Below, piece after piece: positions 6,113 through 21,471 of a DNA stretch of 64,000 nucleotides (positions are counted from its first letter, which is position 1; every line of letters begins with the position of its first letter). The stretch covers positions 3,471,501-3,535,500 of the forward strand of contig NC_009523.1 in NCBI RefSeq assembly GCF_000016665.1. The letters are read 5' to 3'. The DNA is from Roseiflexus sp. RS-1 (GTDB taxonomy: Bacteria > Chloroflexota > Chloroflexia > Chloroflexales > Roseiflexaceae). A program made the position numbers and the translations under genes. The notes below the pieces were generated by a model. It was not told the DNA's origin, made no database searches, and saw only the letters and a list, made by a program, of their open reading frames with translations.

Positions 6113-6718
6113 TTAGCAGCTCCTGCGCCTGAGCCAGTACCACGCCGAGGGCCAGGTTGTGTCGCAGACATGGGTGATCCCATGTTCAACACGTTCGACT
6201 GAGAACGCAGGGAGAAAGAGGCGTTCTACCTCGCCTTTCGCAATCCAGCGCGACATCTCGCTCGATGTTCCATCGTTCAGGTGCGCAAACAACAGGTATA
6301 ACCCGCCAGGTCGCGTCAATCGTATCACTTCGCTGGCATACGCCTGAAGTTCCTCTCCGCTCATACCGTGCATACAACCGACATCGAGAACCAGATCATA
6401 CGCTTCGCTTAAGAAATGAAGGTTGGTGACCGGGGCGGTAAACAGGCGTACCCGATGAGCAACTCCTGCGCGACGGACTCGCTCTTCGGCGAGATCTATC
6501 GCTTCAGGCACGAAATCGACGCCATCCGCCTGCCATCCCCGCGCTGCCAGATAGACGCACGCGCGCGCTGTGCCGCATCCCAGGTCGAGCACGCGCCCTG
6601 GCGGAAGTTCCGCCGCCACAGCAATGACTTCGGGCGGCGGCAGCTCGTGGTCCCACGGAATGTCGCCATCACGGTATCGCTGTTGCAGACGTTGAAAGCG
6701 GGTCATTGGGTCGGTCAT
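6113..6718 (-). CDS. Class I SAM-dependent methyltransferase
   Basis: A 201-residue small-molecule methyltransferase. The SAM-binding motif I is VLDLGCGTARACVYLA (about residues 42-57), followed by motif II GVDFVPEAIDLAEER. The acidic motif-IV region is YDLVLDVGCMHGM, and LTRPGGLYLLFAH is the beta-5 region. The N-terminal PWDHELPPPEV resembles the tellurite/thiopurine (TehB/TPMT-like) subgroup. The substrate is unknown. It is convergent with the membrane protein (stop codons 6 bp apart) and divergent from the ECF sigma operon. Confidence 0.8.
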   Translation of the reverse strand: MTDPMTRFQRLQQRYRDGDIPWDHELPPPEVIAVAAELPPGRVLDLGCGTARACVYLAARGWQADGVDFVPEAIDLAEERVRRAGVAHRVRLFTAPVTNLHFLSEAYDLVLDVGCMHGMSGEELQAYASEVIRLTRPGGLYLLFAHLNDGTSSEMSRWIAKGEVERLFLPAFSVERVEHGITHVCDTTWPSAWYWLRRRSC

Positions 6719-6824
6719 GCGCTTAATCCCTTTCGCTCATTGCTGTTGTTCCCGCATCGGAGCAGCACACTGCTTCCCTGCTATAATAGTATGGAATATA
6801 TGTCACCGACTTTGCGTGCATTGT

Positions 6825-7430
6825 ATGAATGATGAGTCTGCTCTGATTGCCGGGTTGCGTCAACGCGATCCCCAGGCGTTTGCAACCTTTTTTGAACAGT
6901 ATGCCGATAGGATCTACCGTCTCGCGTATGGGATCGTCGGTAATGAGGCAGATGCCGAAGAGGCGTTGCAGTCCACATTCATCTCAGCTCTCGAAGCAAT
7001 TGACCGCTTCGAACAGCATGCGCGCCTGGGCACGTGGCTTTACCGCATTGCCTACAATCACGCCCTGATGATCCTGCGCCGCCGTCGCCCCGAAGAGTCG
7101 TTGCCCGATGAAGATGGTCCCCTTCCCATGCCATCGGCGCTGACGGACTGGAGTACGCTACCGGAGGATCGCCTGTTGAGCAGCGAGGCGCAAGAGATTC
7201 TGCGGAACGCCATCGCAGAACTGCCGATCACGCTGCGCGCAGCGTTCATATGCCGTGACATCGAAGGCTTCTCGACCGCCGAGTGTGCGCAGATCATTGG
7301 TGTGAGCGAAGGTGCGCTGAAGGTGCGCCTCCATCGCGCACGCCTGGCGCTCCGCGAACGGGTGAGTGAATACTTTGGCGAATGGGTGGCATCGCCATCC
7401 TCCCGTGGAGACCATGACCATGACGTGTGA
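6825..7430 (+). CDS. ECF (extracytoplasmic function) RNA polymerase sigma factor, first copy
   Basis: A 201-residue sigma-70 family factor. Region 2 (about residues 12-85) includes DPQAFATFFEQYADRIYRLA and the core-binding/-10 helix GTWLYRIAYNHALMILRR. Region 4 (about 135-190) holds the -35 helix-turn-helix GFSTAECAQIIGVSEGALKV-RLHRAR. There is no region 1.1 or 3, as in ECF factors. The ATG at 6825 was chosen because upstream codons are non-homologous; a TATAAT lies at 6782-6787. Its 3' end overlaps the anti-sigma gene by 17 bases, so the two are translationally coupled. Confidence 0.9.
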   Translation: MNDESALIAGLRQRDPQAFATFFEQYADRIYRLAYGIVGNEADAEEALQSTFISALEAIDRFEQHARLGTWLYRIAYNHALMILRRRRPEESLPDEDGPLPMPSALTDWSTLPEDRLLSSEAQEILRNAIAELPITLRAAFICRDIEGFSTAECAQIIGVSEGALKVRLHRARLALRERVSEYFGEWVASPSSRGDHDHDV

Positions 7431-7683
7431 AGAAGTGATCGCCCACCTGTCAAGTTACCTCGATCACGAGATGGATGCTGCGCTGGCTGCCGAGATGCAG
7501 GAACATATTGCACAGTGTCGCAACTGCCGCGTCGTGCTCGATACCACCCAACGCCTGATAGTGCTGCTCCACGACGAAGGACGACACATCATTCCGATGG
7601 GAGAGCGCAGTGCACTCTTTGATCGCCTGCAACAGGCGTTCCTCAACCGTCCGCCTGCATCCGACTCAAACACGACCGTGTAA
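7414..7683 (+). CDS. Zinc-finger anti-sigma factor, first copy
   Basis: An 89-residue protein with the ZAS (zinc anti-sigma) signature HIAQCRNCR, i.e. H-x3-C-x2-C, preceded by the helix CEEVIAHLSSYLDHEMD. It would bind and hold the upstream ECF factor. No membrane segment is visible, so it is cytoplasmic, probably responding to redox or zinc state. Start at ATG 7414 (GGAG four bases upstream) or at the second ATG 7420; both overlap the sigma stop. Confidence 0.85.
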   Translation: MTMTCEEVIAHLSSYLDHEMDAALAAEMQEHIAQCRNCRVVLDTTQRLIVLLHDEGRHIIPMGERSALFDRLQQAFLNRPPASDSNTTV

Positions 7684-7725
7684 CGCCCATTGCTGTGATT
7701 GCATCTGAACGATGAAAGCAATACC

Positions 7726-8328
7726 ATGCCCGGACTGACCATCGATCTGACGATCTACGACGATGAAGAAGCATTGCTTGCCGGGTTGCGCCGCCGTGAG
7801 CCTGATGCATGCGCCTGCCTGATCAAACGCTTTGCGCCGCTGGTCTATGCCCAGGCGCTGCGGTTGCTCGGCGACGCCGACGAAGCGGAAGGGGCGCTGC
7901 AACAGACATTTATCAAAGCGTGCGACAAACTCGATACGTATGAAGGACGCAGCGGATTGGGAAGCTGGCTCTACCGCATCGCAACCAACGAAGCGCTCAT
8001 GCTGCTGCGCCAGCGGTCGCCGCGCGTGGCTATCGATCATGTCGCCGATACGATCCAGGCGGACGAGATACCGCAACATCTAACGCCGTGGACGCTCGAC
8101 CCGGCAGCTGCAGCGCTGAACAGTGAACTGCGCGCTACCCTGGAACAGGCGCTGATGACGCTCCCCGAAACGCTGCGCATTGTCTTCGTTCTGCGGGACC
8201 TCCAGGGTTTGAGCACTGAAGAGACTGCGGCGATGCTCGGTCTGGGCGAAAGTGCGGTAAAAGTCCGTTTGCACCGCGCGCGGTTGCGTCTGCGGGAATT
8301 GCTTTCCACATATATGCAGGAACACTGA
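7726..8328 (+). CDS. ECF RNA polymerase sigma factor, second copy
   Basis: A 200-residue ECF sigma factor, paralogous to the one at 6825. Region 2 includes DACACLIKRFAPLVYAQALR and GSWLYRIATNEALMLLRQR. Region 4 contains GLSTEETAAMLGLGESAVKV-RLHRARLRLRELL. It follows the first anti-sigma gene by 42 bp, so it belongs to the same transcription unit. The ATG at 7726 is preferred over the upstream TTG at 7699, but the ribosome site is weak. Confidence 0.9.
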   Translation: MPGLTIDLTIYDDEEALLAGLRRREPDACACLIKRFAPLVYAQALRLLGDADEAEGALQQTFIKACDKLDTYEGRSGLGSWLYRIATNEALMLLRQRSPRVAIDHVADTIQADEIPQHLTPWTLDPAAAALNSELRATLEQALMTLPETLRIVFVLRDLQGLSTEETAAMLGLGESAVKVRLHRARLRLRELLSTYMQEH

Positions 8329-8937: not shown

Positions 8938-9261
8938 TCGGCAACTCCTCCCCTCTCGCCTCGCGCCGCCGCCCCCGCTGCCGGTCTGGGCGCAGCGCCG
9001 CTGCGCCCCTACGTTGCCCCTCGCCTCATCCCCTCGCGCCTCGCGCCTCTTGCCCCTCGCCTCATCCCCTCGCGCGTCGCCCCTCTCCCCGAACCCTTGA
9101 GGTTGGGCGGAGTCACCCGGCGCAGGCGCACATGTCCGATGCACCCCTACACGTTGTCGTCCGACGTTCAACGTGCAACGTTCAACCTTCAACCCCTCTC
9201 ACCTCTCGCCCCTCCCCCCTCGCGCCTCTCGCCTCGCCACCCCTCGCCTCGCGCCGCTAAC
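8938..9261. repeat. Low-complexity CCTCGC-rich intergenic DNA with heptamers
   Basis: No gene seen. The stretch is made of CCCTCGC/GCGCCTC-like units of about 7 bp, a GGGCGCAGCGCC-GCTGCGCCCC palindrome near 8988-9011, and a clean array GTTCAAC-GTGCAAC-GTTCAAC-CTTCAAC at 9166-9193. A closely similar composite (palindrome, then ACACGTTGTCGTCCGACGTT, then heptamers) recurs at 15545-15642. Confidence 0.75.
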
Positions 9262-10893
9262 CTAGAAATACCTGCTCAGATTCTCGAAAATCTGACCAAT
9301 ATCGCCGGTGTCGCCCTGCACCACGATGGTGCGCGAGAATGTCGCAATCTGCTCCAGCGCTGCAAGATCCGCATCCGATCCGTAAGCCACAGGGAAAATG
9401 CTGATGCCAGTCTCGTCGAATGCCAGCCGGACCTGGTCGAGTGTCGTGCGACTGGCATTGTCAAGTCCGTCTGAAAGTAGCACGATTGCGCGAATCCGTT
9501 CTTCATCAGGTGGCGGCAGGTCGTCGAAAACCTGTTTGCCAGTGATCAGGGCATCGTACAGTGCCGTTTTGCCGCGCGCGTTCAATTGCGCAATGGCGTC
9601 GTCGAGCGCAATGCGCGCCTCGCTCAACGGAGCAGGCGGCACAACAACACGTGCATCTGTCGAAAAGACGATCAACCCAACCCGATCTTCTGGAAGAATG
9701 CGGCTCAGGAAGGTTCCAAGCCCGGATTTTGCCGCCTCCAATTTTTCGCCCTCCATTGAACCGGAGACATCGACCACCAGCAGGATGTCGGCTCGTTTGC
9801 GGTTGATCGACCAGGCATTCTTGGCAGCAACGATCACTTCAGCTGGCGGTGTCGGCAACACGCTCTGCACCCCTTGCGGCTGAACGCCATACGCCAGACT
9901 GATCGGGTCTGCCAGCGGCACATCGACATTTGCCGGGCGGAAGCCGTAGCTCATCGCCAGTTGCTGGCTCTCGACCGATAGCAGAAAGTCGTAGAAGCGC
10001 TCTGCCGCCTGGCGCTCCTGCGGCGATGCGGTTGCCATGATGATGAACGGATTATCGTGCCAGAAGGTGCCTTCACGTGGATAGATCGCAACCAGCGGCG
10101 TCGGCGGGTTTTTGTTCTTGTTGAAGTCGATCAGGGTGATTTCTTCCATCGGAAACGCCGAGATGTATCCCATCCCGAATTTCCGCATATTTTCGCTGAA
10201 GACCAGCGTATTGTAGCCGTAGTGCTTGATCCCTTTGCCCAGTTTACGAATAAACTCCTGACTCTCCGGTCGCTGAATATCCGCCACCGTCAGGTCGCGT
10301 TGTTTGCCGGTTGCAGCGTAGAACTCCGCCAGCAACGTCGAGAGCGCCGTCGTGCTGATCTCCGGGTCGGTGTGTCCCCAACTGAAGCGCCCCCACTCCG
10401 GGTGACCATACGCCCCCCATCCGCGCGGATCCTCGATCAGCGTCAGCATGTCTGACCAGCCGATCGACTTCTCGGGCCAACCCATTGCCTCCGCCATTGG
10501 ACGCCACATCGAGATCACCACCGGCGTCAACACCAGGGGCTGGTTCGATACGGCAACATTCGGATTGCCACTCTCGTATTTCAACACTTCCAGCCAGGTT
10601 GAAGCGGACGGCGACCAGATGGTGGTTTTCAATTGTCCATTCCTGATCTCGGTACGCGCAGCGCCGCTCGATTTGTTGATCCCCTCGACCACGATCGGTT
10701 GCCCATCGACCTGCTCACGTGCACGGTTGAACGCAGCAATGCGATCCTTCAGCCACTCGTCTTTTTCAGGACTGTAGGTGATGGTGATGGTGATGGCGTT
10801 GGCTGGAACGCCACCTCCGTCCGTTGGATTGCCGCAGCCTGAAATGACCAATCCAGCAATGAGCAGGAGAAGCAGTGATATGTTGTTGCGCAT
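9262..10893 (-). CDS. Solute-binding-like lipoprotein fused to a VWA domain (first)
   Basis: A 543-residue lipoprotein with signal and lipobox LVISGC near residue 20. Residues about 30-330 look like a periplasmic-binding-protein fold (TIWSPSASTWLEV, TPVVISMWRPMAEAMGW, EGTFWHDNPFIIM, YGFRPANVDVPL). Residues about 360-540 are a von Willebrand A domain with a complete metal site: DVSGSM, the threonine of GKTALYDAL, and LLSDGLDN. It would act outside the membrane, tethered by lipid, as a metal-dependent protein-interaction module; the ligand is unknown. The ATG has AGGAG 7 bases upstream. It lies 22 bp after the Uma2 gene. Confidence 0.85.
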   Translation of the reverse strand: MRNNISLLLLLIAGLVISGCGNPTDGGGVPANAITITITYSPEKDEWLKDRIAAFNRAREQVDGQPIVVEGINKSSGAARTEIRNGQLKTTIWSPSASTWLEVLKYESGNPNVAVSNQPLVLTPVVISMWRPMAEAMGWPEKSIGWSDMLTLIEDPRGWGAYGHPEWGRFSWGHTDPEISTTALSTLLAEFYAATGKQRDLTVADIQRPESQEFIRKLGKGIKHYGYNTLVFSENMRKFGMGYISAFPMEEITLIDFNKNKNPPTPLVAIYPREGTFWHDNPFIIMATASPQERQAAERFYDFLLSVESQQLAMSYGFRPANVDVPLADPISLAYGVQPQGVQSVLPTPPAEVIVAAKNAWSINRKRADILLVVDVSGSMEGEKLEAAKSGLGTFLSRILPEDRVGLIVFSTDARVVVPPAPLSEARIALDDAIAQLNARGKTALYDALITGKQVFDDLPPPDEERIRAIVLLSDGLDNASRTTLDQVRLAFDETGISIFPVAYGSDADLAALEQIATFSRTIVVQGDTGDIGQIFENLSRYF

Positions 10894-10915
10894 AATGTAC
10901 TCCTGACGCAGATCC

Positions 10916-11854
10916 TCACCCGTCGGTCCCGTCGCGGCTGCGCAATCGCCGCAGTTCCGCTTCCAGGTCGCGCAACCGCGCCGCGAGCGCCGCGCGCTCC
11001 TCCGCCTCCCGATGCGCGCGTATTTCGGCTTCCCGGCGCGCGCGCGCTTCCGCTTCCCGCTGCGCGCGTTCCGCCTCGCGCTGCGCGTGTCCTTCGGCCT
11101 CCCGCCGCGCCTGCGCCTCCCGCTGCGCGCGTTCTGCCGCTTCCGCCGCCTGCCGCACTACCGTCGCATACTCGCCGAACGCCGCACCCCGCTCGTCGTA
11201 GCAGACCACGTGGTCGCCCTCCACCCCCAGCCACAGATTGGCGATGACCAGATGCACTCGCCGTGCGGCATCTGGCGCGTGCAGGCGGTACGCCCCCGCC
11301 TCCAACCGGTAGTCGAGCAGGCGTAGACGCCGCTTTCCCCCCCGTCGCCTGGCGTCGTCCACAATCACATACTGCGCCACCCCCGCCCGCGCATAATGGT
11401 CAACCTTGATCTCCAGATCGTTCGCGCGCGTCTCCGGCGAGGTGATTGCGATGATCAGCGCCGGACGCGCCCCCTCGACCGCCACGTCGAAGGTGCTCCA
11501 ATCCTGCCGCTCCGCCACGCCGGGGATGACCATCACATCCGGTCCGTGCGGACGCAGGTCGGGAATATCCCACGCGATGCGCACATCGCTGAGGACGATG
11601 GCGACGCCAGCGGACTCAAGGCGCGCGCGCAGCACGGCGGTCAGGTACATCCGGTCGGTCTCGTGGCGGTCGCTATGCACGATGAAGTCTCCGGTTTCAG
11701 GGTGCAGGACGTCCTCCAGCGTGAGCGGAACCTGTTCCAGGTTGTAGGGGTCGTCGGGGGTGGGGCGCGGCACGAGACGCCAGCCGTAGCGGAACGGATC
11801 GGTTTCGGGCGGCGTGTCCGGCGCCGGGGGGCGATGGGCGGTCGTCCGGGTCAT
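10916..11854 (-). CDS. Uma2 family protein (restriction-endonuclease-like fold) with coiled-coil tail
   Basis: A 312-residue DUF820/Uma2-type protein. The PD-(D/E)xK-like core is visible: PHGPDVMVIPG, then ALIIAITSPETRANDLEIKVDHYARAGVAQY-VIVDD, where Asp, the E-T pair and K form the presumed metal site. Residues about 235-305 are a charged Glu/Arg/Ala heptad-rich coiled coil (AEAERAQREAEAR type). Uma2 proteins are very abundant in cyanobacteria and Chloroflexota, and their function is unsettled. Start: AGGAGG is 8 bases before the ATG at 11854. The 22-bp spacing to the SBP-VWA gene suggests co-transcription, which may be incidental. Confidence 0.8.
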   Translation of the reverse strand: MTRTTAHRPPAPDTPPETDPFRYGWRLVPRPTPDDPYNLEQVPLTLEDVLHPETGDFIVHSDRHETDRMYLTAVLRARLESAGVAIVLSDVRIAWDIPDLRPHGPDVMVIPGVAERQDWSTFDVAVEGARPALIIAITSPETRANDLEIKVDHYARAGVAQYVIVDDARRRGGKRRLRLLDYRLEAGAYRLHAPDAARRVHLVIANLWLGVEGDHVVCYDERGAAFGEYATVVRQAAEAAERAQREAQARREAEGHAQREAERAQREAEARARREAEIRAHREAEERAALAARLRDLEAELRRLRSRDGTDG

Positions 11855-11939
11855 GAACCATGCCTCCTGGGAAGATGAGCGAGTTGCGCGAGTCTGGCGT
11901 TGCCGACCACTCTAGCGAAGCGCAGCATACGTGTTCACA

Positions 11940-12002
11940 TTCTCCTGGGAGCGAGGGCATCTTGCCCTCGTAGACGCGACGAGGGCGGAACACCCTCGCC
12001 TT
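11940..12002. repeat. CGAGGGCATCTTGCCCTCG hairpin repeat
   Basis: A palindromic repeat (CGAGGGC-ATCTT-GCCCTCG) followed by a diverged copy (CGAGGGCGGAACACCCTCG) upstream of the Uma2 gene. It is related in style to the GCGGGCAAGATCCCCGC units at 43680-43890. Confidence 0.65.
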
Positions 12003-12166
12003 ATGGAGATTGAGAATTTAATCCGGTATGCGCCTCTTGCCGTCGGGCTGATGGAGATTGAGAATTTAATCCGCTATACCGGACTAGCCGTCAGGCTGAA
12101 GCCCTCGGCCAGGCAAGGCGAAGCCCGCCTGCGCGGGCTATAGCGGAATAATTACTCAAAGACCAT
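12003..12166 (+). repeat. 116-bp mobile repeat with one extra left half
   Basis: A 48-bp left half (12003-12050) is followed directly by a full 116-bp copy (12051-12166) running from ATGGAGATTGAG to CAAAGACCAT. The core contains AAGCCCTCGGCC and the GCCCGC-CTGC-GCGGGC hairpin. No second right half follows, so this nest is incomplete. Confidence 0.85.
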
Positions 12167-12310
12167 CAGGCGCGTGTATTACCTCGGGTGTGAACAGTTA
12201 CGAATACCCTTCTATTGTACCACCTCTGGCGAGGGAACACGGGCAATGGAACGTGCAGGGGCGCGCCGGAACGCCTGCCCGGCTTCGCGCTGTGCGCCGT
12301 GCGCCTCATC

Positions 12311-13066
12311 CTACATCGCACCGCTCCGCGCCAGCGCAGTGTCGAGCACCGCCTGGAATGCGTCCATGTCGGATTTGAGATCTGCCAGGCGTCGCGCCAC
12401 CTGACTGGTCGTACTGTCGGCGCTGGCAGCATCGGCGGTGCGCAGCCGCACTGTTTCTGCCAGGACATTATCGAGGCTGGCGCTGATGTTCTGCAACTGT
12501 GCGCTAATGCGACCGATATAGGTGTCAAGGTCGCGCACATTCTGGATTTTTTCCAGTCGCGCCTGGCGCGTTTCTTCGAGTTGCGACCGGGTGTACGGGT
12601 CCTGTGTCGATTGCATTTGCCGGTCGATAGCGGCGACCTCCTGCTCAAGCTTGCGCCGGTCGACCGACGCCAGGTAGCGTTCGATGATCTGTCCCTTGTC
12701 CGCCAGGATGTACGCCTCTTCGACCAGTTCGCGCCCCTGTTCGGCGATCGGGAGCAGCAGGCGCGCCAGCGGACCGCCGGATTGGGCAGCGCTGCGGGTG
12801 ATCTCCTGGTGGGTGCGTTCAATAGCTTCGATCTGCGCGCGAAATGTGGGACTGGTGAGACGCGGACGCGGCGCTGGCGGCGGACGACGCGCGGCATCGA
12901 TCAGCACCGGGTCGCGCATGCCGAAGAAGACCATCAGGGCATACGCCAGCAGTCCGAGCGGGAACAACCAGTCTGCAATGGTCAACCCGGCAATGATTGC
13001 GACTACCAGCACGACGATCGCCAGCGGTTGGCGCGCCGCAAGGAGTGGAAGGGTCATAGAGTTCAT
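12311..13066 (-). CDS. Membrane/coiled-coil protein of unknown function
   Basis: A 251-residue protein. Two adjacent hydrophobic segments (about residues 14-32 and 34-49) form a membrane hairpin. They are followed by a proline-rich linker (RRPPPAPRPR) and about 180 residues of predicted helix/coiled coil containing KLEQEVAAIDRQMQ and RLADLKSDMDAFQAVL. There are no catalytic motifs. The architecture recalls XpaC/TelA-associated helical proteins, but I cannot confirm that. It lies between the two SBP-VWA genes on the same strand, so a shared envelope complex is a reasonable inference. ATG 13066 has GAGGG 7 bases upstream. Confidence 0.6.
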   Translation of the reverse strand: MNSMTLPLLAARQPLAIVVLVVAIIAGLTIADWLFPLGLLAYALMVFFGMRDPVLIDAARRPPPAPRPRLTSPTFRAQIEAIERTHQEITRSAAQSGGPLARLLLPIAEQGRELVEEAYILADKGQIIERYLASVDRRKLEQEVAAIDRQMQSTQDPYTRSQLEETRQARLEKIQNVRDLDTYIGRISAQLQNISASLDNVLAETVRLRTADAASADSTTSQVARRLADLKSDMDAFQAVLDTALARSGAM

Positions 13067-13101
13067 AGGTGCACCCTCAATACGTTGTGTCTGTGAGGCT
13101 G

Positions 13102-13403
13102 ATGAAGATCAAGAATATAAACCGGTATTCGTTCTTGCCGTGAGGCTGATGGAGATTGAGAACTTAATCCGATATACCGCACTAGCCGTGGGGCTGAAGC
13201 CCTCGGCTACCCAGGGCAAAGCCCGCCTGCGCGGGCTATACCGGAGTAATCGTTCAAAGACCATAAGCCCTCGGCTATCCAGGGCGAAGCCCGCCTGCGC
13301 GGGCGAGAGCGGATTATGTATTCAAAGACCATAAGCCCTCGGCTATCCAGGGCGAAACCCGCCTGCGCGGGCTAGAATGGCGGATTATTGCTTCAAAGAC
13401 CAT
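13102..13403 (+). repeat. Nested 116-bp mobile repeats (L, full, R, R)
   Basis: Left half 13102-13148, full copy 13149-13264 (116 bp), right half 13265-13332 (68 bp), right half 13333-13403 (71 bp). Each half-boundary falls at the GGGCTG|AAGCCC centre. The order fits successive insertion of copies into the middle of earlier copies. Confidence 0.85.
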
Positions 13404-13523
13404 CAGCCCTCCCTAAGCGCATGGAAAGCCCCTGCGGGGCTGGCGTGTCCGTCACCCTTCCCTCTGCCGAGGGGCGCCGGGTTGATCCAGCCCGCAGGGC
13501 TTGCCCGACCTCAGCCAGGGCTT
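13404..13523 (+). repeat. Second dispersed repeat family, copy A
   Basis: About 120 bp starting CAGCCCTCCCTAAGCGC, with an AGCCCCTGCGGGGCT hairpin and a GATCCAGCCCGCAGG segment, ending CAGCCAGGGCTT. The same sequence occurs in reverse orientation at 52565-52692. Both copies abut 116-bp repeats. Confidence 0.8.
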
Positions 13524-13639
13524 ATGGAGATTGAGAATATAATCCAGTATGCGCCTTTTGCCGTCGGGCTAAAGCCCTCGGCTATCCAGGGCGAAGCCCG
13601 CCTGCGCGGGCTATGGCGGATTATTTGTTCAAAGACCAT
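13524..13639 (+). repeat. Intact 116-bp mobile repeat
   Basis: A complete copy running from ATGGAGATTGAGAATATAAT to TGTTCAAAGACCAT. Its terminal 27 bp form an imperfect inverted repeat, and the centre reads GGGCTAAAGCCC. Confidence 0.85.
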
Positions 13640-13714
13640 CAGCCCGCCGGAGACGTACATCCCCACCCGTGCCGATCCATCGTATCCGCGTCGATCCGTG
13701 TTCTATTCACGGAG

Positions 13715-15400
13715 TCAGAAGAACGTTGCGATGTCCTGGTAAACACGTTCAATGCTGCCGCGTTCTCCCGGTTTGCCGACATAACTCTTCGCCCCGGTCG
13801 CTTCGGCGATTTCCTTCAGCAAGTTTACATCAGCATCGCCGCCGAACGCAACGGTGAAGACTTTGATACTGTATCCCTCCCGGTCCTGCCTGAGCAGATT
13901 GAGCACGTCTTGCGCATTACGCTGGCTCTTGTTGTCCAGCCCGTCGGTCAACACCACAACTGCGCGGATGCGTTGACCGGGCGGTGTGGCGCTCATTTCC
14001 TGGTACGCTTCGACGGTTGTATCGAGCAGACGCGTGCCGCCGCGCGGCGTGAGTCCCGCGATGCGATTAAGGATTTCGGCGCGCTTGGGACCGATGGGAG
14101 AGACTGGTGTGAGAACGGTTGCACTGTCACTGAAGATGGTCAACCCGAACCCGTCGTCGTCCTGCAACTGCTCGATGAAAATGCGCAGCGCTGTTTTTGC
14201 CTGTTCCAGGCGCGCTTCATCTGCCATGCTGCCGGACACATCCAGGACGGCCATCACATCGACCCGTTTTTTGTTTTCCACCCAGATGCTGCGAATGGCG
14301 GCCAGCACATCAGGGCGCGGCACATCGAGCAACGTCTGAGGTTGCTGCGGATCGACGCCGTTTTCCGCAACAATCGGCGCTCCTACCGGCACATCGGTGC
14401 TGGCGGGGCGAAAGCCGTAACTCAGCGCCCGTTCCTGCTGTGGGCGATCAAGCAGATAGCGCAGGAACACATCCGCCGCCTCGCGCTGTTCGGCGCTGAC
14501 CCAGGGCGCATTCAGCACAGCATACGGGTGATCGCTCCAGAAGGTGCCCTCCTTCGGGTAAATGGCGACAACCGGCTGCGAAACGGCGGGGTAGCGGTCG
14601 CGGTTGTAGGACTCGATCACCAGGTTCTCGTACAACACGGCGGCTGAGAGATACCCCGGTCCGCGGTTGAACATCTGGTCGGCGAAGAAACCGGTGCTTT
14701 CACCGTAGTGGATGATGCCGCTCTCAATATTCTGCATGAACTGGGCGACCTGGGGATTCTGCACATCGGCGACGGTCAATCCGCGCGTTTTGCCGGCTGC
14801 CGCATAACTGATGGCAATAATCGCTGCAACACCGCTGTTGGAGTAATCAGGGTGGGTGTGACCGAACTGGATCGGACCCCACTCCGGTCTGCCAAAGTCC
14901 GCCCAGGTTTTGCCGCTCGCCGACAGTTCGGCGAGGTCGCTCCAGCCAAGTGGTTTGTTGGGCCAGCCAAGCACTTCGGCCATCGGCTTCCACATAGCGA
15001 TGACAACCGGGCTGAGCACCAGGAGCGGCGCATTTTCATCGACCAGCGTGGCGCCGTTGTTCCGTTTGCCCCACTCATCGTTGGCGACCGGCAGCAGAAT
15101 CCGGCTCGCCGGACTCCAGATGGTCGGCTGAATCGTGCCGTTCAGAATCTGGTTCATCGAGTCGGTCGAACCCATTGGCGTCGCAGTGACGCGGATGGTG
15201 GCGCCGCTCGCAATTTTCTGACCGGCGGCGTTGAACTGCCCGACCGCCTCTTCCAACCAGGCGCGCTTCTCGCTGCCGTAGGCAATGCTGATCTCGATCG
15301 TATTTGCGCCCGGAGCGATACCAATCCCGTTTCCGCCGCACGCTGTCAGCGCCGGCGCCACCAGAACCAGGATCAGAAGCCATCGGAGTATGTGTGGCAT
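13715..15400 (-). CDS. Solute-binding-like lipoprotein fused to a VWA domain (second)
   Basis: A 561-residue paralogue of the protein at 9262. Lipobox APALTACG at about residues 14-21. The binding-protein-like region (about 30-360) includes TIWSPASRILLPV, SPVVIAMWKPMAEVLGW, EGTFWSDHPYAVLNAPW and YGFRPASTDVPVG. The VWA domain (about 380-560) keeps the metal site: DVSGSM, the threonine of GGTRLLDTTVEAY and LTDGLDN. Surface-exposed, lipid-anchored. AAGGAG is upstream of the ATG. It shares the EGTFWxDxPY and YGFRPA motifs with both neighbours, which shows descent from one ancestor. Confidence 0.85.
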   Translation of the reverse strand: MPHILRWLLILVLVAPALTACGGNGIGIAPGANTIEISIAYGSEKRAWLEEAVGQFNAAGQKIASGATIRVTATPMGSTDSMNQILNGTIQPTIWSPASRILLPVANDEWGKRNNGATLVDENAPLLVLSPVVIAMWKPMAEVLGWPNKPLGWSDLAELSASGKTWADFGRPEWGPIQFGHTHPDYSNSGVAAIIAISYAAAGKTRGLTVADVQNPQVAQFMQNIESGIIHYGESTGFFADQMFNRGPGYLSAAVLYENLVIESYNRDRYPAVSQPVVAIYPKEGTFWSDHPYAVLNAPWVSAEQREAADVFLRYLLDRPQQERALSYGFRPASTDVPVGAPIVAENGVDPQQPQTLLDVPRPDVLAAIRSIWVENKKRVDVMAVLDVSGSMADEARLEQAKTALRIFIEQLQDDDGFGLTIFSDSATVLTPVSPIGPKRAEILNRIAGLTPRGGTRLLDTTVEAYQEMSATPPGQRIRAVVVLTDGLDNKSQRNAQDVLNLLRQDREGYSIKVFTVAFGGDADVNLLKEIAEATGAKSYVGKPGERGSIERVYQDIATFF

Positions 15401-15544
15401 AGATCAACAACTCCTTATGTTAATCACTACACCTGGCAACTCGTTCGGGAAACGGATGACTGCACCCTCTGTAACCTTCTCACACGCAACGTTCACCCCT
15501 CGCCCCTTGCGCGCCGCCGCCCCCGCCATGGCCCCCGCTGCCGG

Positions 15545-15642
15545 TCCGGGCGCAGCGCCGCGGCGCCCCTACACGTTGTCGTCCGACGTTCAACCTTCAA
15601 CCTTACAACGTGCAACCTTCAACCTTCAACGTGCACCCTTCA
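15545..15642. repeat. GC palindrome plus CTTCAAC heptamers
   Basis: GGGCGCAGCGCCGCGGCGCCCC is followed by ACACGTTGTCGTCCGACGTT and heptamers GTTCAAC, CTTCAAC, GTGCAAC (15588-15642). It sits between the second SBP-VWA gene and the SBP gene; the rest of 15401-15545 shows nothing. Confidence 0.75.
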
Positions 15643-15648
15643 CATCGA

Positions 15649-16893
15649 TCACCGATTGATCTGTCGCCGCCAGAGATTGAGGATCGTGGTCACCACCTCG
15701 CCCGATGGCGTCTCTACGAGCGGCGGCGTGTCGACCTGCGCGCCATATGCGCTGTATTTGACGAAGGGATTGGACGGATCGTTGGTCAGCACCGGCACAT
15801 CGGGAATGGCCGGGCGGAACCCATACTGGCGAAAGGCGATCTCCTGGATAGGGGGTGACAACAGGAAATTACGGAATTGCTCCGCCGCCTGCCGCTGTTC
15901 CGGCGTCACCCACGGCGCATTCAGGATGGCATAGGGATGATCGCTGAACATGGTTGCCGGCGGATAGTAGATGCGGATGTCCCCCCAGCGGTTCTGGGCG
16001 GCGACAATATTCTCCAGCGCAAGGTTCTCGTAGACCAGCACCAGATCGTACTTGCTCGGACCGAACTGCACCATGCTGGTCATAAACGAACCGGTGCTGT
16101 CGCCGAATTCGAGCACCGCCATCTCGACATCGCGCATCCACTGCTGGAACTCAGGGGAGAGCACGTCGGCGTTCGTCAAACCCCGACTTTTACCATGGTA
16201 GCCATACGCCATGAGGATCAACGCCTGTGCGCCGCTGTTCGAGGTCAGCGGCGAGGTATGACCGAATTTGACGAACCCCCAGTTGCTGGCTTTCTGGTAC
16301 TCTGGCGAGCCGGGAGCGAAACCGCGCGCTCTGGCGACGCCGATCCATCCCTCACTATCGGTAAGCGCCGCGTGCAGGTTCTGCCAGAAGTTCTCCGGAC
16401 CCTGGGGCCAGAGCAACTGGGCGCGTTCCTGCCAGATCACCGCCACCAGCGGCGTTAATGCCAGCGGCGTCACCTGACCCGGATTTTCGGTGATGAACGA
16501 CGGCGCACCGCGATTGAGCGCCGCCCAGTCGGTGCGCGCCACCTCGACCCACATGCTGCTCGCCGGGCTGATCACCGTCGGTTGCCCGTCGCCGCCGAAC
16601 TCGCGCCGCGCGGCGCGCACGGCAAGTTCACGCGAACCGATGCCGCGCAGCACAATCTGGATCGGGCGGTTCCCCACACGCGGGTTGGTTGCCGCAAACC
16701 GCTGCGCGGCATCTTCAAACCACTGCCGTTTCTCGGTGCCATACCAGATCGTTACTACGACTGGGTCCTGCGCCGGGCCGATGGGGAGCGGGAAGGGCGC
16801 GTCGCCGACAGGACCGACGAATGCCGTGGCAAGAAGCGCCAGCAGGCAGATGAGGAGGTAGCCGATGCCGATTGCCCGCGTAACCGATTGCAT
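15649..16893 (-). CDS. Solute-binding-like membrane-anchored protein without VWA domain
   Basis: A 414-residue protein related to the binding-protein half of the two SBP-VWA proteins: VISPASSMWVEVARTDW, LTPLVAVIWQERAQ, FSDHPYAILNAPWVTPEQRQAAEQF and YGFRPAIPDVPV. It lacks the VWA domain and has no lipobox Cys; instead there is a single N-terminal hydrophobic segment (about residues 8-27), so it is secreted or membrane-anchored. It is probably first in the minus-strand cluster. AGAGG precedes the ATG at 16893. Function unknown. Confidence 0.8.
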   Translation of the reverse strand: MQSVTRAIGIGYLLICLLALLATAFVGPVGDAPFPLPIGPAQDPVVVTIWYGTEKRQWFEDAAQRFAATNPRVGNRPIQIVLRGIGSRELAVRAARREFGGDGQPTVISPASSMWVEVARTDWAALNRGAPSFITENPGQVTPLALTPLVAVIWQERAQLLWPQGPENFWQNLHAALTDSEGWIGVARARGFAPGSPEYQKASNWGFVKFGHTSPLTSNSGAQALILMAYGYHGKSRGLTNADVLSPEFQQWMRDVEMAVLEFGDSTGSFMTSMVQFGPSKYDLVLVYENLALENIVAAQNRWGDIRIYYPPATMFSDHPYAILNAPWVTPEQRQAAEQFRNFLLSPPIQEIAFRQYGFRPAIPDVPVLTNDPSNPFVKYSAYGAQVDTPPLVETPSGEVVTTILNLWRRQINR

Positions 16894-17034
16894 AATCTAC
16901 CTCTTACGAAGGAAGCCGCATCCTGGTTGCAGTCTAACCGATCTTGATTAAGTTGGTGTTATCGACTCGTTGACGATTTGGTTGCAGCACTGAATCTACG
17001 TGTCAATGCTCGTTGGGTTGCGGGATTAGGGACG

Positions 17035-17132
17035 TGAGAACCGAGAACCAAGAACCAGGAACCAAGAACCAGGAACCAGGAACCAAGAACCAGGAACCAG
17101 GAACCGAGAACCGGGAACCGAGAACCAAGAAT
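17035..17132. repeat. Heptanucleotide array, CAGGAAC/GAGAACC type
   Basis: Fourteen 7-bp units (CGAGAAC, CAAGAAC, CAGGAAC). This is the reverse complement of the GGTTCYC array at 111-201. Confidence 0.9.
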
Positions 17133-17140
17133 CCCATTGT

Positions 17141-17390
17141 TCAACGCGCAACGTGTAACGCGCAACGTGTAACGCGCAACGTGTAACGCGCAACGTGTAA
17201 CGCGCAACGTGTAACGCGCAACGTGTAACGCGCAACGTGTAACGCGCAACGTGTAACGCGCAACGTGTAACGCGCAACGCGTAACGCGCAACGTGTAACG
17301 TTCAACGTGTAACGCACAACGTGTAACGCACAACGTGTAACGCGCAACGTGTAACGTTCAACGTGTAACGTTCAACCTTCCCACCTTCAA
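17141..17390. repeat. Heptanucleotide array, GTAACGC-GCAACGT type
   Basis: About 35 units alternating GTAACGC and GCAACGT (a 14-bp superunit), ending in diverged units (TCAACGT, ACAACGT, CTTCAAC). It ends a few bases from the stop codon of the THUMP methyltransferase at 17397. Confidence 0.9.
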
Positions 17391-17396
17391 CAATGC

Positions 17397-18485
17397 CTAC
17401 ACCCGTTCCGCCACCACCACCACCGCCCGGCGCCCCAGGATGATCACCGGGTAGGTTTCGCGCCGCACGAGGCGGTTGTTCCGGCGCAGCGCGTCGCCTA
17501 ACGTGCGCACATCACCGCTCAGCGCAACAAAGCGGGCGCCGGGGCGCAGCACCCGTACCGCTTCGCGCAGAAATGCCGGGTAGAGGTCGCGGTTCTCTTC
17601 GACCGATCCCACCTGCGCGCCAAACGGCAGATTGACCGCCAGCGCCGTCACCGATCCGGCGTCGAGCGGCAACTGCCGCGCATCCCATTCGTGAATGGAG
17701 ATCGGTTGATAGCGCGACCCGATGTTTGCCCGCGCCGTGGCGACTGCGTCAGGATCGCTGTCGCCGCCGATCAAGGCGCGATAGCGCCCCAGGTGCGCCC
17801 GCTCGATCAGAATCGTGCCCGCACCGCACATCGGGTCGAGAAACACATCATCGTCACGCGGCGACGTGAGCCATGCCAGCGCAGCCGCAGCCGCCGGGCG
17901 CAGGGACGCGGGGAGATGTTCCACTTTGTAGGTGCGGTGGCGCATCCGCTCATCGCTCAGGCGCACCATCAGCAGCGCTTCGCCGGGCCATTGCGTCAGC
18001 CAGATTTCAATCCCGCCGTCGGCGCTGAGCCGCCAGCGATGATCCGGGCGCGCTGCGATCCCGCGTTCAACGGCGATCTGCGCATCGACGCGACGGTAGG
18101 GCGCGCGCCCGACCTGCCGCGCAACCACGCGGTAGTGGATCCGTCCTTCGCCGCCGCGCCGCGGATCGACCAGACGCACCAGGCGGATGGCGCGCTCGAT
18201 GCCGGGCGCCGTCGTCGCCAGATGCTCAAGCTGGCGCAACGCTGCGAATCCCGGCGCCAGATCGCGCGTCTCCGCTGCTGCCACAAAGATGTCCTCAACT
18301 GTCCGCAGCGTCAGCGGATCACGCGGATCACCGGTGTATGCGAACCGTACCATGCCGTTCTTATCGGCGACCGGGCGCACATCGAGGATGTGAGCGCCAT
18401 CGAGACGTTGTGCAATCTCGGTCGCAGCAATTGCCTCGAAGCCGGGTTGCGTTTGGGCGATGTAGATGTGACGGGTGGAGGGCAT
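17397..18485 (-). CDS. THUMP-domain RNA methyltransferase (TrmN/RlmL-like)
   Basis: A 362-residue putative RNA guanine/adenine N-methyltransferase. The N-terminal region (about 1-150) is THUMP/ferredoxin-like (YIAQTQPGFEAIAATEIAQR). The C-terminal class I methyltransferase has the SAM motif FLDPMCGAGTILIERAHLGR and, instead of NPPY, the catalytic-loop sequence VNLPFGAQVG, followed by REAVRVLRPGARFVALSGD. It would modify tRNA or rRNA. The ORF extends to 18623, but the upstream residues are low-complexity; the ATG at 18485 with AAAGG upstream matches the family start (alternative 18503). Confidence 0.85.
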   Translation of the reverse strand: MPSTRHIYIAQTQPGFEAIAATEIAQRLDGAHILDVRPVADKNGMVRFAYTGDPRDPLTLRTVEDIFVAAAETRDLAPGFAALRQLEHLATTAPGIERAIRLVRLVDPRRGGEGRIHYRVVARQVGRAPYRRVDAQIAVERGIAARPDHRWRLSADGGIEIWLTQWPGEALLMVRLSDERMRHRTYKVEHLPASLRPAAAAALAWLTSPRDDDVFLDPMCGAGTILIERAHLGRYRALIGGDSDPDAVATARANIGSRYQPISIHEWDARQLPLDAGSVTALAVNLPFGAQVGSVEENRDLYPAFLREAVRVLRPGARFVALSGDVRTLGDALRRNNRLVRRETYPVIILGRRAVVVVAERV

Positions 18486-18945
18486 AGCTGCGCCTTTCGC
18501 CATCGGGTCGGCGTTGATTGATGCAGCAGAGTATATCACGGACCCTGCGCCGCCGCGCCCACCCTGCGCCGCCGCCCTGCCGCACCCACCCCAAACCCTG
18601 CGCAGGGCGCAGCGTCGCCGCACCCCTCCTGCGGTTCATTGCACCGATCCCACGAGATAATGAGACAATAGTACTATTTTGTATCTCCCAATATTCCTAT
18701 TTTTGCATGGTACTAAAGTCCTATTGCCTTCGTTAAACGTGCACACTATCGTGGTTAATAGCGACTCGTATCTTCTAGTGCGATGCACACGTCCATGTTG
18801 ACGGTTCACTCTGATCCAATGCGTTTGGGGCATCTCTTCCTGCGCTTTGCCATCCGCTCCTTATTTCCCGCTCCCGGCAGCGGGCATCCACAGGGGAGAC
18901 ACAGTCGCCCTGCATTCGCGCTTCAGACACAGGAGGTCCAGACCA
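18486..18945. other. Intergenic region with an AT-rich island (18655-18780)
   Basis: 18540-18640 is CCGCCG-rich low-complexity DNA. From about 18655 to 18780 the composition becomes strongly AT-rich, with TAGTACTA, TTTTGTATCTCC, TATTTTTGCATGGTAC and TTAATAGC. This is unlike the surroundings and plausibly the promoter/operator zone for the repeat protein at 18946. I cannot fix a -35/-10 pair with confidence. Confidence 0.5.
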
Positions 18946-21471
18946 ATGGCGCTCATCCGCATCGCACGTATGCTCGCAGCGCTGCTGCTGGTCGCCGTCG
19001 CTGCACCAGCAGCGGGCGCAGTCGTCCACTCCGCTCCGGTAGCGGGTCCGCCCGCGCCGGTTGTCGCCGTAGCGCCGCCGGTCGCAGTGCACACGACAGG
19101 CGCCGTATCCGCACCCGTTGCGGCGACCGACAATGATGAGGACAACAACCCACAGACTATTCCGGCGGAAGACCTGCTCGCCCCGGACGGGACGCTACAT
19201 CTGGATGGGACGTTCAACGGCGCGGTGGACATCAATGGCTGGAATGTGACCCTCGACCCGGACAACGGCCCGATCTTTAGCCCGCAGGCGCTCACATACA
19301 CCTGGGAGAATCTGGGCACGGGGGTAGAAGGAGTGCTCAACGGGTCAGTCAACGCCATCGCCATCAGCGGCACGGACGTGTTCGTCGGCGGCAGCTTCAC
19401 CAACGCTGGCGGCGTGACCGGCGCGAGCTACCTCGCCCGCTGGGACGGCGTGCAGTGGCATGCCGTCGGTGGGGCGAATGCGATTAGCGGCGGTTTCTCC
19501 ACCATCGTCACCGCTATCGCCATCAGCGGCACGGATGTATATGTCGGCGGCGACTTCACCAACGCTGGCGGCGTGACCGGCGCGAACTACATTGCCCGCT
19601 GGGACGGCGCGCAGTGGCACGCCGTCGGCGGGGCAAACGCAATCAGCGCACCTGTCAACGCCATCGCCATCAGCGGCACGGACGTGTACGTCGGCGGTGA
19701 CTTCACCGACGCTGGCGGCAACTCTAATGCTGACCGAATCGCCCGCTGGGACGGCACGAACTGGAACGCGCTCGGCACTGGGATCAGTGGCTTTGGCGTC
19801 GTCACCACCATCGCCCTCAGCGGCACGGAGGTGTACGTCGGCGGCAACTTCACCGACGCTGGCGGCGTCAGCGGCGCGAACTACATTGCCCGCTGGGACG
19901 TCGCGAATAACACCTGGAACCAGGTCGGCGGAATGAGTGCGATCAATAACTTTGTCAATGCCATCGCTATCAGCGGCACGAACGTGTATGTGGGCGGCAA
20001 CTTTACTGGCGCAGGCGGCGTGACCGGCGCGGACTACATTGCCCGCTGGGACGGCACAACCTGGAGCGGGTTGCTCAGCGGCACCTTCGGCATCAACAGC
20101 CAGGTTAACACCATCGCCCTCAGCGGCACGGACGTTTACGTCGGCGGCCGGTTCACCAACGCTGGCGGTGTGCCCGGTGCGAACGCCATTGCCCGCTGGG
20201 ACGGCGCGCAATGGCACACCGTCGGCGGGGCGAATGCGATTCCCGGCTCTTCCTCCGCCGTCTACGCTATCGCCATCACCGGCACGGATGTCTACGTCGG
20301 CGGCTTCTTCACCAACGCGGGCGGGAACAACGCAAACGACTTCCTTACCCGCTGGACCGGTTCGTCATTCGTTCCGCCTGGCAGCAAAACCGCCAGACCG
20401 CTCAATGGGACTGTCTACACCGTTGCCGTCAGCGGCACGGACGTGTATGTCGGCGGTCGGTTCACCAACGCTGGCAATGTGCCCGGCGCAAACTACATTG
20501 CCCGCTGGGACGGCGCACAGTGGCACGCCGTCGGCGGGGCGAATGCGATCAACGGCGAGGTCTACACTATCGCCATCAGCGGCACGAACGTGTACGTCGG
20601 CGGCAGCTTCATCAGCGCCGGCGACATACCCGGATCGAGCTTTGTCGCCCGCTGGGACGGCATGCAGTGGAGCGGACTGCTCAGCGGGACAGTCGGACTC
20701 AATAGACCTGTCTACACCATCGCCATCAGCGGCACGGACGTGTATGTCGGCGGCGACTTCACCGCCGACGCTACGCTCGGCGCGTCCGGCGTGAACTACA
20801 TTGCCCGCTGGAACGGCACGAGCTGGAGCGGGCTGCTCAGCGGGACGGTCGGGCTCAATGGCTCCGTCTACACCATCGCCATCAGCGGCACGGACGTGTA
20901 TGCTGGCGGTAGATTCGCCAACGCGGGCGGCGTGCGCGGCGCCAACTACATTGCCCGCTGGAACAGTGCGAACAACACCTGGAATCGCATCGGCGGGGCG
21001 AATGCGATTAGCGGCGATTTCTACACCGCTGTTCGCGCTATCGTCCTCAGCGGAAGCGATGTCTACGTCGGTGGCAACTTCACCGACGCGGGCGGCGTGC
21101 GCGGCGCGAACAACATCGCCCGCTGGGACGGCACGAACTGGAACGCCGTCGGCGGGGCGAGTGCGATCAACGACAATGTTTATGCCGTTGCCATCAGTGG
21201 CGAGAACGTGTACGTCGGCGGCGACTTCACCAAAGCGGGCGGAAACAGTGCGGCCGACTACCTCGCCCGCTGGGACGGCGTACAGTGGACGGCGTTGGTC
21301 AGCGGCACGGCGGGAGTGTTCGGTCCGGTCTACGCGCTCGCCGTGCCGTCGAGCGATGACGTGTACGCCGGCGGCAACTTCCTCAACACCGGCAACAACC
21401 CGTTCGCCGATTACATCGCCCGCTATGCGCTTGCCACGAAGCGAGTGTATCTGCCGCTTATCGTGCGGTAG
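18946..21471 (+). CDS. Secreted beta-repeat protein, paralogue of 531-2753
   Basis: An 841-residue exported protein. Signal sequence MALIRIARMLAALLLVAVAA, an Ala/Pro/Val-rich spacer, then the motif LDGTFNGAVDINGWNVTLD shared with the first paralogue. About 14 repeats of roughly 49 residues follow, with the core NAIAISGTDVYVGGDFTNAGG and YIARWDGAQW. Beta-propeller-like surface protein; no catalytic residues seen. Start: AGGAGGT at 18931-18937, 8 bases before the ATG. It ends in RVYLPLIVR, the same tail type as its paralogue. Repeats differ more here than in the first paralogue, so the array is older. Confidence 0.8.
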   Translation: MALIRIARMLAALLLVAVAAPAAGAVVHSAPVAGPPAPVVAVAPPVAVHTTGAVSAPVAATDNDEDNNPQTIPAEDLLAPDGTLHLDGTFNGAVDINGWNVTLDPDNGPIFSPQALTYTWENLGTGVEGVLNGSVNAIAISGTDVFVGGSFTNAGGVTGASYLARWDGVQWHAVGGANAISGGFSTIVTAIAISGTDVYVGGDFTNAGGVTGANYIARWDGAQWHAVGGANAISAPVNAIAISGTDVYVGGDFTDAGGNSNADRIARWDGTNWNALGTGISGFGVVTTIALSGTEVYVGGNFTDAGGVSGANYIARWDVANNTWNQVGGMSAINNFVNAIAISGTNVYVGGNFTGAGGVTGADYIARWDGTTWSGLLSGTFGINSQVNTIALSGTDVYVGGRFTNAGGVPGANAIARWDGAQWHTVGGANAIPGSSSAVYAIAITGTDVYVGGFFTNAGGNNANDFLTRWTGSSFVPPGSKTARPLNGTVYTVAVSGTDVYVGGRFTNAGNVPGANYIARWDGAQWHAVGGANAINGEVYTIAISGTNVYVGGSFISAGDIPGSSFVARWDGMQWSGLLSGTVGLNRPVYTIAISGTDVYVGGDFTADATLGASGVNYIARWNGTSWSGLLSGTVGLNGSVYTIAISGTDVYAGGRFANAGGVRGANYIARWNSANNTWNRIGGANAISGDFYTAVRAIVLSGSDVYVGGNFTDAGGVRGANNIARWDGTNWNAVGGASAINDNVYAVAISGENVYVGGDFTKAGGNSAADYLARWDGVQWTALVSGTAGVFGPVYALAVPSSDDVYAGGNFLNTGNNPFADYIARYALATKRVYLPLIVR

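Follow-up and report, generated by a model that had tools for sequence, protein, structure and literature searches.

A cluster of substrate-binding-like and VWA proteins in Roseiflexus

The window analysed here is a 64,000-nucleotide stretch of the Roseiflexus sp. RS-1 genome (G000:C1:3471501-3535500, on a single contig of 5,801,598 bases), and this study concerns a set of five genes located on its minus strand between positions 16893 and 9262 (coordinates are those of the window throughout). In order of transcription, the set encodes a membrane-anchored, solute-binding-like protein (substrate-binding protein, SBP; P0003, 414 aa, 15649-16893), a lipoprotein-like fusion of an SBP to a VWA domain (SBP-VWA fusion, SV; here SV2, P0002, 561 aa, 13715-15400), a coiled-coil protein with two predicted transmembrane (TM) helices (CC; P0004, 251 aa, 12311-13066), a Uma2-family protein (P0005, 312 aa, 10916-11854) and a second lipoprotein-like SBP-VWA paralogue (SV1; P0001, 543 aa, 9262-10893).

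The Pfam domain SBP_bac_11 is found in the SBP (E 5.3e-17), in SV2 (E 6.3e-16; SBP domain at about 15301-14318) and in SV1 (E 1.6e-13; about 10788-9937). Both fusions also carry a VWA domain (SV2, E 6.3e-18, about 14260-13718; SV1, E 7.7e-16, about 9789-9286) in which the DxSxS, T and D residues of the metal ion-dependent adhesion site (MIDAS) are complete (D387, S389, S391, T456 and D486 in SV2, at about 14242-13943). SV1 and the SBP are 40% and 39% identical to SV2, respectively. An earlier reading of this DNA (the original prediction) had announced three such paralogues, two of them fused to a VWA domain with a full MIDAS, together with a membrane/coiled-coil protein, and the genes bear this out. 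Of the two motifs by which it had characterised the paralogues, YGFRPA does occur in all three but EGTFW is absent from the 414-aa protein, the corresponding region reading EGTFWSDHPY in SV2, EGTFWHDNPF in SV1 and only ATMFSDHPY in the SBP. When read by eye, the N-terminus of the SBP appears as a hydrophobic anchor without a lipobox cysteine, and SV1 and SV2 display the lipobox-like motifs ISGC and LTAC.

CC is predicted to begin with two short hydrophobic helices (about 13027-12917) followed by long helices that form a coiled-coil region (about 12850-12323), which is probably cytoplasmic as suggested by the positively charged residues located after the second helix. No ABC permease or ATPase was matched by Pfam in the five genes or in the methyltransferase gene upstream, in agreement with what had been predicted, and P0001 to P0004 match none of the anti-phage defence families of PADLOC.

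Conservation of the set in Chloroflexota

The SBP, SV and CC genes form a conserved neighbourhood in Chloroflexota and are not specific to Roseiflexus, a point that the original prediction had proposed to check. CC was found in 38 of 60 genomes sampled from the genus, family and order of Roseiflexus; among 30 relative loci read around it (31 entries with the window), SBP, SV and CC occur together in 18, and SV and CC without SBP in two, both on short contigs. In a draw of 301 genomes from the phylum, CC was present in 28 and a strong SV match (E<1e-40) in 48, with all 28 falling within the 48, and within the order CC was detected in 24 of 24 genomes having SV and in none of the five lacking it; in these counts, which are inflated by relatedness among genomes, the CC and SV draws are taken as the same genomes, their handles agreeing in the rows listed. 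One Chloroflexota locus (L103:8420-14000) has two SV genes, the first with a degenerate MIDAS, followed by a gene encoding a 426-aa PspA-type protein.

In a few Anaerolineae, genes of the GPP34 (Golgi phosphoprotein 3) family, which is membrane-linked, occur beside SBP-SV-CC (L138:6071-6721, L152:10416-11042, L150 and L139). Three further loci (L107, L108 and L114) have SBP-SV-CC-like sets followed by a Peripla_BP_6 gene of the leucine-binding type, that is, a second and different binding fold.

Gene orders in other bacteria

When 84,980 species genomes were scanned with a 7-row profile, 546 matches were obtained and 497 of them confirmed, and the loci described below are the best 80 of these 497; 76 were readable, the four without a full SV reading frame being left unclassed. 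The nearest named relatives of the set among these 80 are metagenome-assembled genomes of Roseiflexus, with 90% identity (L118). Beyond Chloroflexota, the neighbourhood has relatives in Actinomycetota as well as in Verrucomicrobiota, Acidobacteriota, Planctomycetota and Pseudomonadota. Reading downstream, with genes called as longest frames and many contigs being short, the order is SBP>SV>CC in 29 of the 76 loci, SV>SBP in 10, SBP>SV in 9, kinase-SBP>SV in 9 and SV>SBP>CC-like in 4, with 15 other arrangements; outside the 29, SBP and SV are still adjacent in most loci.

PspA lies downstream of SBP (SV>SBP>PspA) in five loci, at 13-38 bp; a CC-like TM protein lies downstream of SV>SBP in 10; and an AAA+ ATPase occurs on the same strand in five (L179, L180, L181, L183 and L193). 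According to record titles, these loci belong to Verrucomicrobiota, Acidobacteriota, Planctomycetota and Pseudomonadota. Pfam recognises PspA_IM30 in two of the neighbours (E 6e-10 and 7.7e-13) and AAA in three (E 2e-22 to 9.3e-25). When 99 of 100 chosen same-strand flanking genes were scanned (the one left out, L140:10661, is itself an SBP), PspA was obtained 5 times, GPP34 4 times, and ABC_tran, Band 7 and histidine-kinase domains twice each, the families listed being the 25 commonest of 127, so that families occurring a single time may have escaped notice. In one locus (L104), an OmpA-SBP gene is found beside SV.

The coiled-coil protein, its link to PspA/AAA+ loci and plasmid-borne relatives of SV

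The Chloroflexota CC is, as judged by profile comparison, homologous to the TM coiled-coil protein of the PspA/AAA+ loci. The two profiles (23 and 10 rows, respectively) align over 157 columns that include the hydrophobic region, with a probability of 93.7 and an E-value of 1.9e-7, whereas the reversed target gave 4.2, the reversed query 0.6 and 20 column shuffles at most 2.6. In addition, one protein of locus L185 was found by the profiles of both families. That CC is itself PspA-like was ruled out (hhalign probability 1.6), and it has no TelA or XpaC match in Pfam at E<=0.1.

A CC-like protein follows SV on plasmids of Miltoncostaea (E 3.2e-24) and Streptomyces (E 2.3e-11), these E-values being relative to a small database and the single-sequence hhalign of the Streptomyces protein being weak (18.1); the SV neighbour on a Thiodictyon plasmid is not CC-like. 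TelA (toxic anion resistance) was found in two of eight plasmid regions examined; among the eight, the Nonomuraea region carries no annotation. In the two cases with TelA, from Variovorax and Sphaerotilus, TelA is an immediate or near neighbour of an SV-like gene (24-27% identity), which is preceded by a divergent SBP and followed by a small gene for a two-TM-like protein. In Deinococcus taeanensis, a divergent SBP and a two-TM-like gene flank SV without TelA. The downstream proteins of these three organisms are mutually homologous (E 3.5e-36 to 5e-19); their homology to CC was not detectable, and the Variovorax protein weakly matches the CC-like profile (E 1.8e-4).

Structure and residue conservation of the fusion

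The structure of SV2 was predicted, as had been proposed, and the AlphaFold2 model (mean pLDDT 94.1, pTM 0.89) consists of an SBP half and a VWA half. Residues 33-379 match type-II SBPs, including the thiamin (2qry, Z 28.0) and sulfate (1sbp, Z 28.0) binding proteins, AfuA (Z 25.6) and 6lkg, a "two-component system protein" (Z 25.4 over 269 residues at 2.9 A). Residues 378-559 match VWA domains, among them the inter-alpha-inhibitor heavy chains (Z 25.6 for ITIH4, and 25.4). No single PDB chain among the fold-search matches listed covers both halves, and a sequence search of the PDB gave VWA relatives only among the 60 of 81 matches listed. The CC model is all helical (mean pLDDT 89.6) and has no PDB match at E<=0.001; its weak top matches, which include several BAR domains, were left uninterpreted.

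Across 85 aligned SV proteins, the MIDAS is complete in 81, and P97, E258, G285 and R331 of the SBP half are invariant, with S78, H181, T182, S187, Y281 and E284 nearly so. These conserved SBP residues presumably lie in cleft-forming loops, as expected from family knowledge of such folds. Conservation is higher in the SBP half, with a mean column entropy of 1.73 bits as compared with 2.07 bits in the VWA half.

Kinase fusions and history of the pair

In the nine kinase-SBP>SV loci, which belong to Ktedonobacteria, the SBP is the outer domain of a transmembrane Ser/Thr kinase. The Pfam architecture of two kinase-SBP proteins, one from these loci and one from another genome, comprises a Zn ribbon, Pkinase (E 1.5e-42 and 1.9e-43) and SBP_bac_11 (E 4.3e-11 and 8.1e-11). 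One of the nine loci (L196) is a contig-end fragment, and CC was found in none of them. In Thermogemmatispora tikiterensis (L155), the kinase frame, intact in relatives, is broken into several, and just the last part of it is still joined to the SBP.

In a tree of 91 SBP domains, from which one spurious row (L047_SV_1, branch 9.67) was disregarded, the SV rows lie on one side of a branch whose support is 87 in the drawing, below the 95 marked by a star, and 30 in the group table owing to that spurious row. P0003 groups with SBP partners from other genomes, and SV1 belongs to a separate SV clade. The SV and SBP halves of the tree contain similar groups (Ktedonobacteria, Anaerolineae and Verrucomicrobia-type). 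The kinase-SBP rows are united in a single group (support 96), which lies outside SV and with the SBP partners; therefore, the outer domain of the kinase is probably the SBP partner rather than SV.

A lipid-anchored sensor as the preferred reading

Taken together, the cytoplasmic partner of the SBP/SV pair varies by lineage, being PspA with AAA+ in some, a Ser/Thr kinase in others, and TelA beside two distant plasmid copies. The reading that we prefer, and to which we assign about an even chance, is that the module works as an extracytoplasmic sensor, lipid-anchored and with its output in envelope maintenance or signalling, and is not a transporter. The counterpart of P0003 has probably become the outer domain of a kinase in Ktedonobacteria and the same pair elsewhere neighbours membrane-maintenance proteins, which makes a ligand sensor the most economical explanation; the sensing role suggested by the original prediction finds its support in these same kinase fusions and PspA and AAA+ neighbours.

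In such a sensor, the SBP and the SBP-VWA lipoproteins would be anchored at the external side of the cytoplasmic membrane, where the SBP clamshell would close upon binding a small solute or a stress compound. The VWA domain may act as a latch, its MIDAS with a bound metal ion gripping an acidic residue of a partner (the other SBP or a membrane complex) in a conformation-dependent manner. The two-TM CC would then carry the state across the membrane and scaffold a cytoplasmic response that, from the gene order of relatives, could be membrane maintenance or remodelling by PspA/IM30 and an AAA+ ATPase, the SBP-fused Ser/Thr kinase, or TelA. More tentatively, and with slightly less than even confidence, these loci can be regarded as one widespread sensor cassette in which an SBP/SBP-VWA pair and a two-TM CC transducer would be combined with interchangeable outputs (PspA and AAA+, TelA, or a Ser/Thr kinase), the VWA/MIDAS serving as a metal-gated latch and the whole as a solute-triggered membrane-maintenance switch; the pair would then derive from an old duplication, its two trees being roughly parallel.

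Several observations weigh against a sensor of this kind. Its weakest points are that the Roseiflexus cluster itself encodes no cytoplasmic partner, be it PspA, AAA+, a kinase or TelA, and that PspA and AAA+ are each linked in only five of the 76 loci, none of which is from Chloroflexota; the one case of PspA beside SV genes observed in Chloroflexota is L103. In the Roseiflexus genome, TelA and XpaC have no match and the AAA+ of the Verrucomicrobia-type loci has only generic AAA matches (<=58.9 bits). The set is also not always complete, since among the 30 relative loci seven have SBP and CC without SV beside them, with SV located elsewhere in the genome for several of these (e.g. G053:C50, G049:C14 and G033:C107), and three have CC alone, two of them on contigs of 6-7 kb. 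CC is not universal either, because the kinase-bearing Ktedonobacteria are without it, and the split that places kinase-SBP on the SBP side of the tree is only moderately supported. The Roseiflexus genome has a single PspA, at about 1.75 Mb from the cluster, which is no more than a candidate for the cytoplasmic partner.

If correct, a clamshell uptake fold and an integrin-like metal site would have been reused, in many phyla, as the outer end of envelope-stress or kinase signalling. Proteins so far named by their domains only would thereby gain a function, and PspA-type and TelA-type membrane systems a candidate signal input. The naturally occurring SBP-kinase fusion would also lend itself to a direct test of ligand sensing.

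Relation to known systems

The SV architecture is covered by the NCBI product name "substrate-binding and VWA domain-containing protein", which is borne by four of the plasmid matches (H3, H6, H7 and H8). Proteins so named have the SBP and VWA in the same order and are of the same length as SV. The plasmid copies are only 24-34% identical, and the name conveys no function and leaves out the three-part module and its cytoplasmic partners. The calcium-channel alpha-2/delta subunits display a more distant likeness, with an extracellular MIDAS VWA next to a small-molecule-binding module and a match at the level of the VWA profile, but their ligand-binding fold is Cache rather than SBP and their partner is a eukaryotic channel. 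The TelA plasmid loci also have an SBP-like gene upstream of SV and a two-TM-like gene downstream, but their SV is only 24-27% identical and the Roseiflexus genome lacks TelA. With the ESCRT-III-like PspA/AAA+ envelope system, the Roseiflexus set has in common the membrane coiled-coil partner, as deduced from the homology of CC. In the open-licence literature, no paper was found on the module and none for "substrate-binding and VWA", older or closed papers being outside that scope.

Ravi et al. 2024 have proposed that operons with PspA, AAA+ and PBPB-OmpA link membrane remodelling to solutes (PMC11237479). These operons share with the PspA-type relatives found here a PspA-type coiled coil, an AAA+ ATPase and a periplasmic-binding-type domain, but they include an ABC ATPase, a permease and an OmpA domain, whereas in the present loci the transporter is absent and SBP-VWA stands in place of the OmpA fusion; the term "von Willebrand" is absent from that main text. 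The Roseiflexus cluster, unlike these operons, is without PspA and AAA+. The L104 locus, with its OmpA-SBP gene, is a possible bridge between the two arrangements.

An SBP acting as the dedicated sensor of a membrane kinase has a precedent in Staphylococcus aureus, since HptA is described as a secreted glucose-6-phosphate-binding protein that passes its signal to a kinase (PMC8774646). HptASR resembles the proposed sensor module in having an SBP fold without a transporter of its own that serves as a sensor beside a membrane kinase, in line with the 6lkg match, and differs from it in that the kinase is a histidine kinase, with neither a Ser/Thr kinase nor CC, and in the absence of a VWA domain. 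Such SBP-kinase coupling is seen in the Ktedonobacterial relatives; the Roseiflexus cluster has no kinase.

Alternative explanations

The alternative that survives best, although an unlikely one, is a constitutive envelope-integrity machine in which SBP and SV would bind lipid, peptidoglycan or protein instead of a small solute while CC and PspA/TelA-type proteins repair or remodel the membrane without any sensing. The neighbours PspA, AAA+, TelA, SPFH/Band 7 and GPP34 are all related to membrane maintenance or toxic-compound resistance, and the OmpA-SBP gene beside SV in L104 recalls the PBPB-OmpA operons (PMC11237479). The near-invariant cleft motifs of the SBP and the kinase fusion nevertheless point to a ligand and a signal.

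Uptake comes second and is likewise unlikely. In this case the SBPs would hand over a solute to an ABC permease whose gene lies at another place in the genome, the VWA domain merely docking or stabilising them, and the fold of SV2 is indeed that of ordinary ABC-importer SBPs such as 2qry and 1sbp. The profiles used to search for ABC ATPase and permease genes were built from few seeds, taken from two loci (L138 and L152). An ABC gene at any position was detected in 19 of the 76 loci, but only two have one on the same strand at no more than 1.5 kb (259 bp away in L121 and 785 bp in L138), in line with the two ABC_tran matches among the 99 flanking genes. A full Pst-like set precedes the genes in both L138 and L152, and on the Thiodictyon plasmid a Pst transporter is located some 5.5 kb upstream, with other genes between. 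The SBP fold of an ABC importer is present and a co-encoded permease/ATPase is, in most loci, not; a dedicated permease/ATPase consistently found next to orthologues, which the original prediction had named as the finding that would contradict its "rather than uptake", did not emerge. Moreover, an SBP fused to a kinase makes no sense for delivery, and two VWA-tailed SBP copies with a coiled-coil membrane protein are unlike the layout of an importer.

Adhesion, the other role put forward by the original prediction, appears improbable. The VWA/MIDAS would bind extracellular matrix, another cell or the substratum, and the SBP would be a stalk or second binding site; the resemblance to inter-alpha-inhibitor heavy chains, sequence-profile matches to collagen VI, TRAP, integrins and pilus tips, the nearly always complete MIDAS and the lipoprotein-like anchoring all go in this direction. 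The VWA fold is however uninformative in this respect, because TFIIH, cobalt/magnesium chelatase and calcium-channel subunits are among the matches as well. No specific support for adhesion was obtained: it is the SBP half, needless for an adhesin, that is more conserved, the conserved partners are cytoplasmic or TM proteins, the spread over free-living phyla is broad, and the 25 commonest flanking-gene families include none related to adhesion or pili.

Finally, MoxR/VWA pairs are known as assembly or metal-insertion chaperones, and such a role towards an exported enzyme is very improbable here, the partial, far-below-cutoff NCBIfam matches of the VWA domain to chelatase and Bat proteins being offset by the absence of MoxR and of any recurring single exported enzyme among the same 25 of 127 flanking families.

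Uma2 gene, tandem repeats and flanking genes

The fifth gene of the set, between CC and SV1, had gone unmentioned in the original prediction; it is lineage-specific and does not belong to the core. Its product matches Uma2 (Pfam, E 3.2e-13) and, weakly, the PADLOC candidate PDC-S03 (E 6.8e-10), and has a repetitive C-terminus rich in Arg, Glu and Ala. The gaps between SBP and SV2 (248 bp) and between SV2 and CC (648 bp) both contain short tandem repeats, the latter being widened by a 68-bp repeat in 2.6 copies (13197-13376). Because the SV2-CC spacing is only 15 bp in a Roseiflexus relative (L040), and a Uma2 match was obtained only in a sister Roseiflexus (L039) among the 30 relative loci, the repeats and the Uma2 gene appear as later insertions into an older set.

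Short tandem repeats make up most intergenic gaps around the cluster (8997-9260, 12003-12099, 13197-13376, 15586-15642 and 17037-17370), including a 14-bp unit repeated 16.3 times at 17143-17370. A scan of positions 9000-17400 for promoters and terminators was uninformative, with no promoter-like site (2.6 in shuffles) and six terminator-like sites (6.3 in shuffles). Just downstream of the cluster and on the other strand (6717-8328), Pfam identifies two consecutive ECF-type sigma factors and a zf-HC2 putative anti-sigma protein, which may act as a pair that regulates the locus. Beside the cluster, at 18847-21471, lies a gene for an 874-aa protein composed of many near-identical repeats (VNAIAISGTDVYVGGSFT...).

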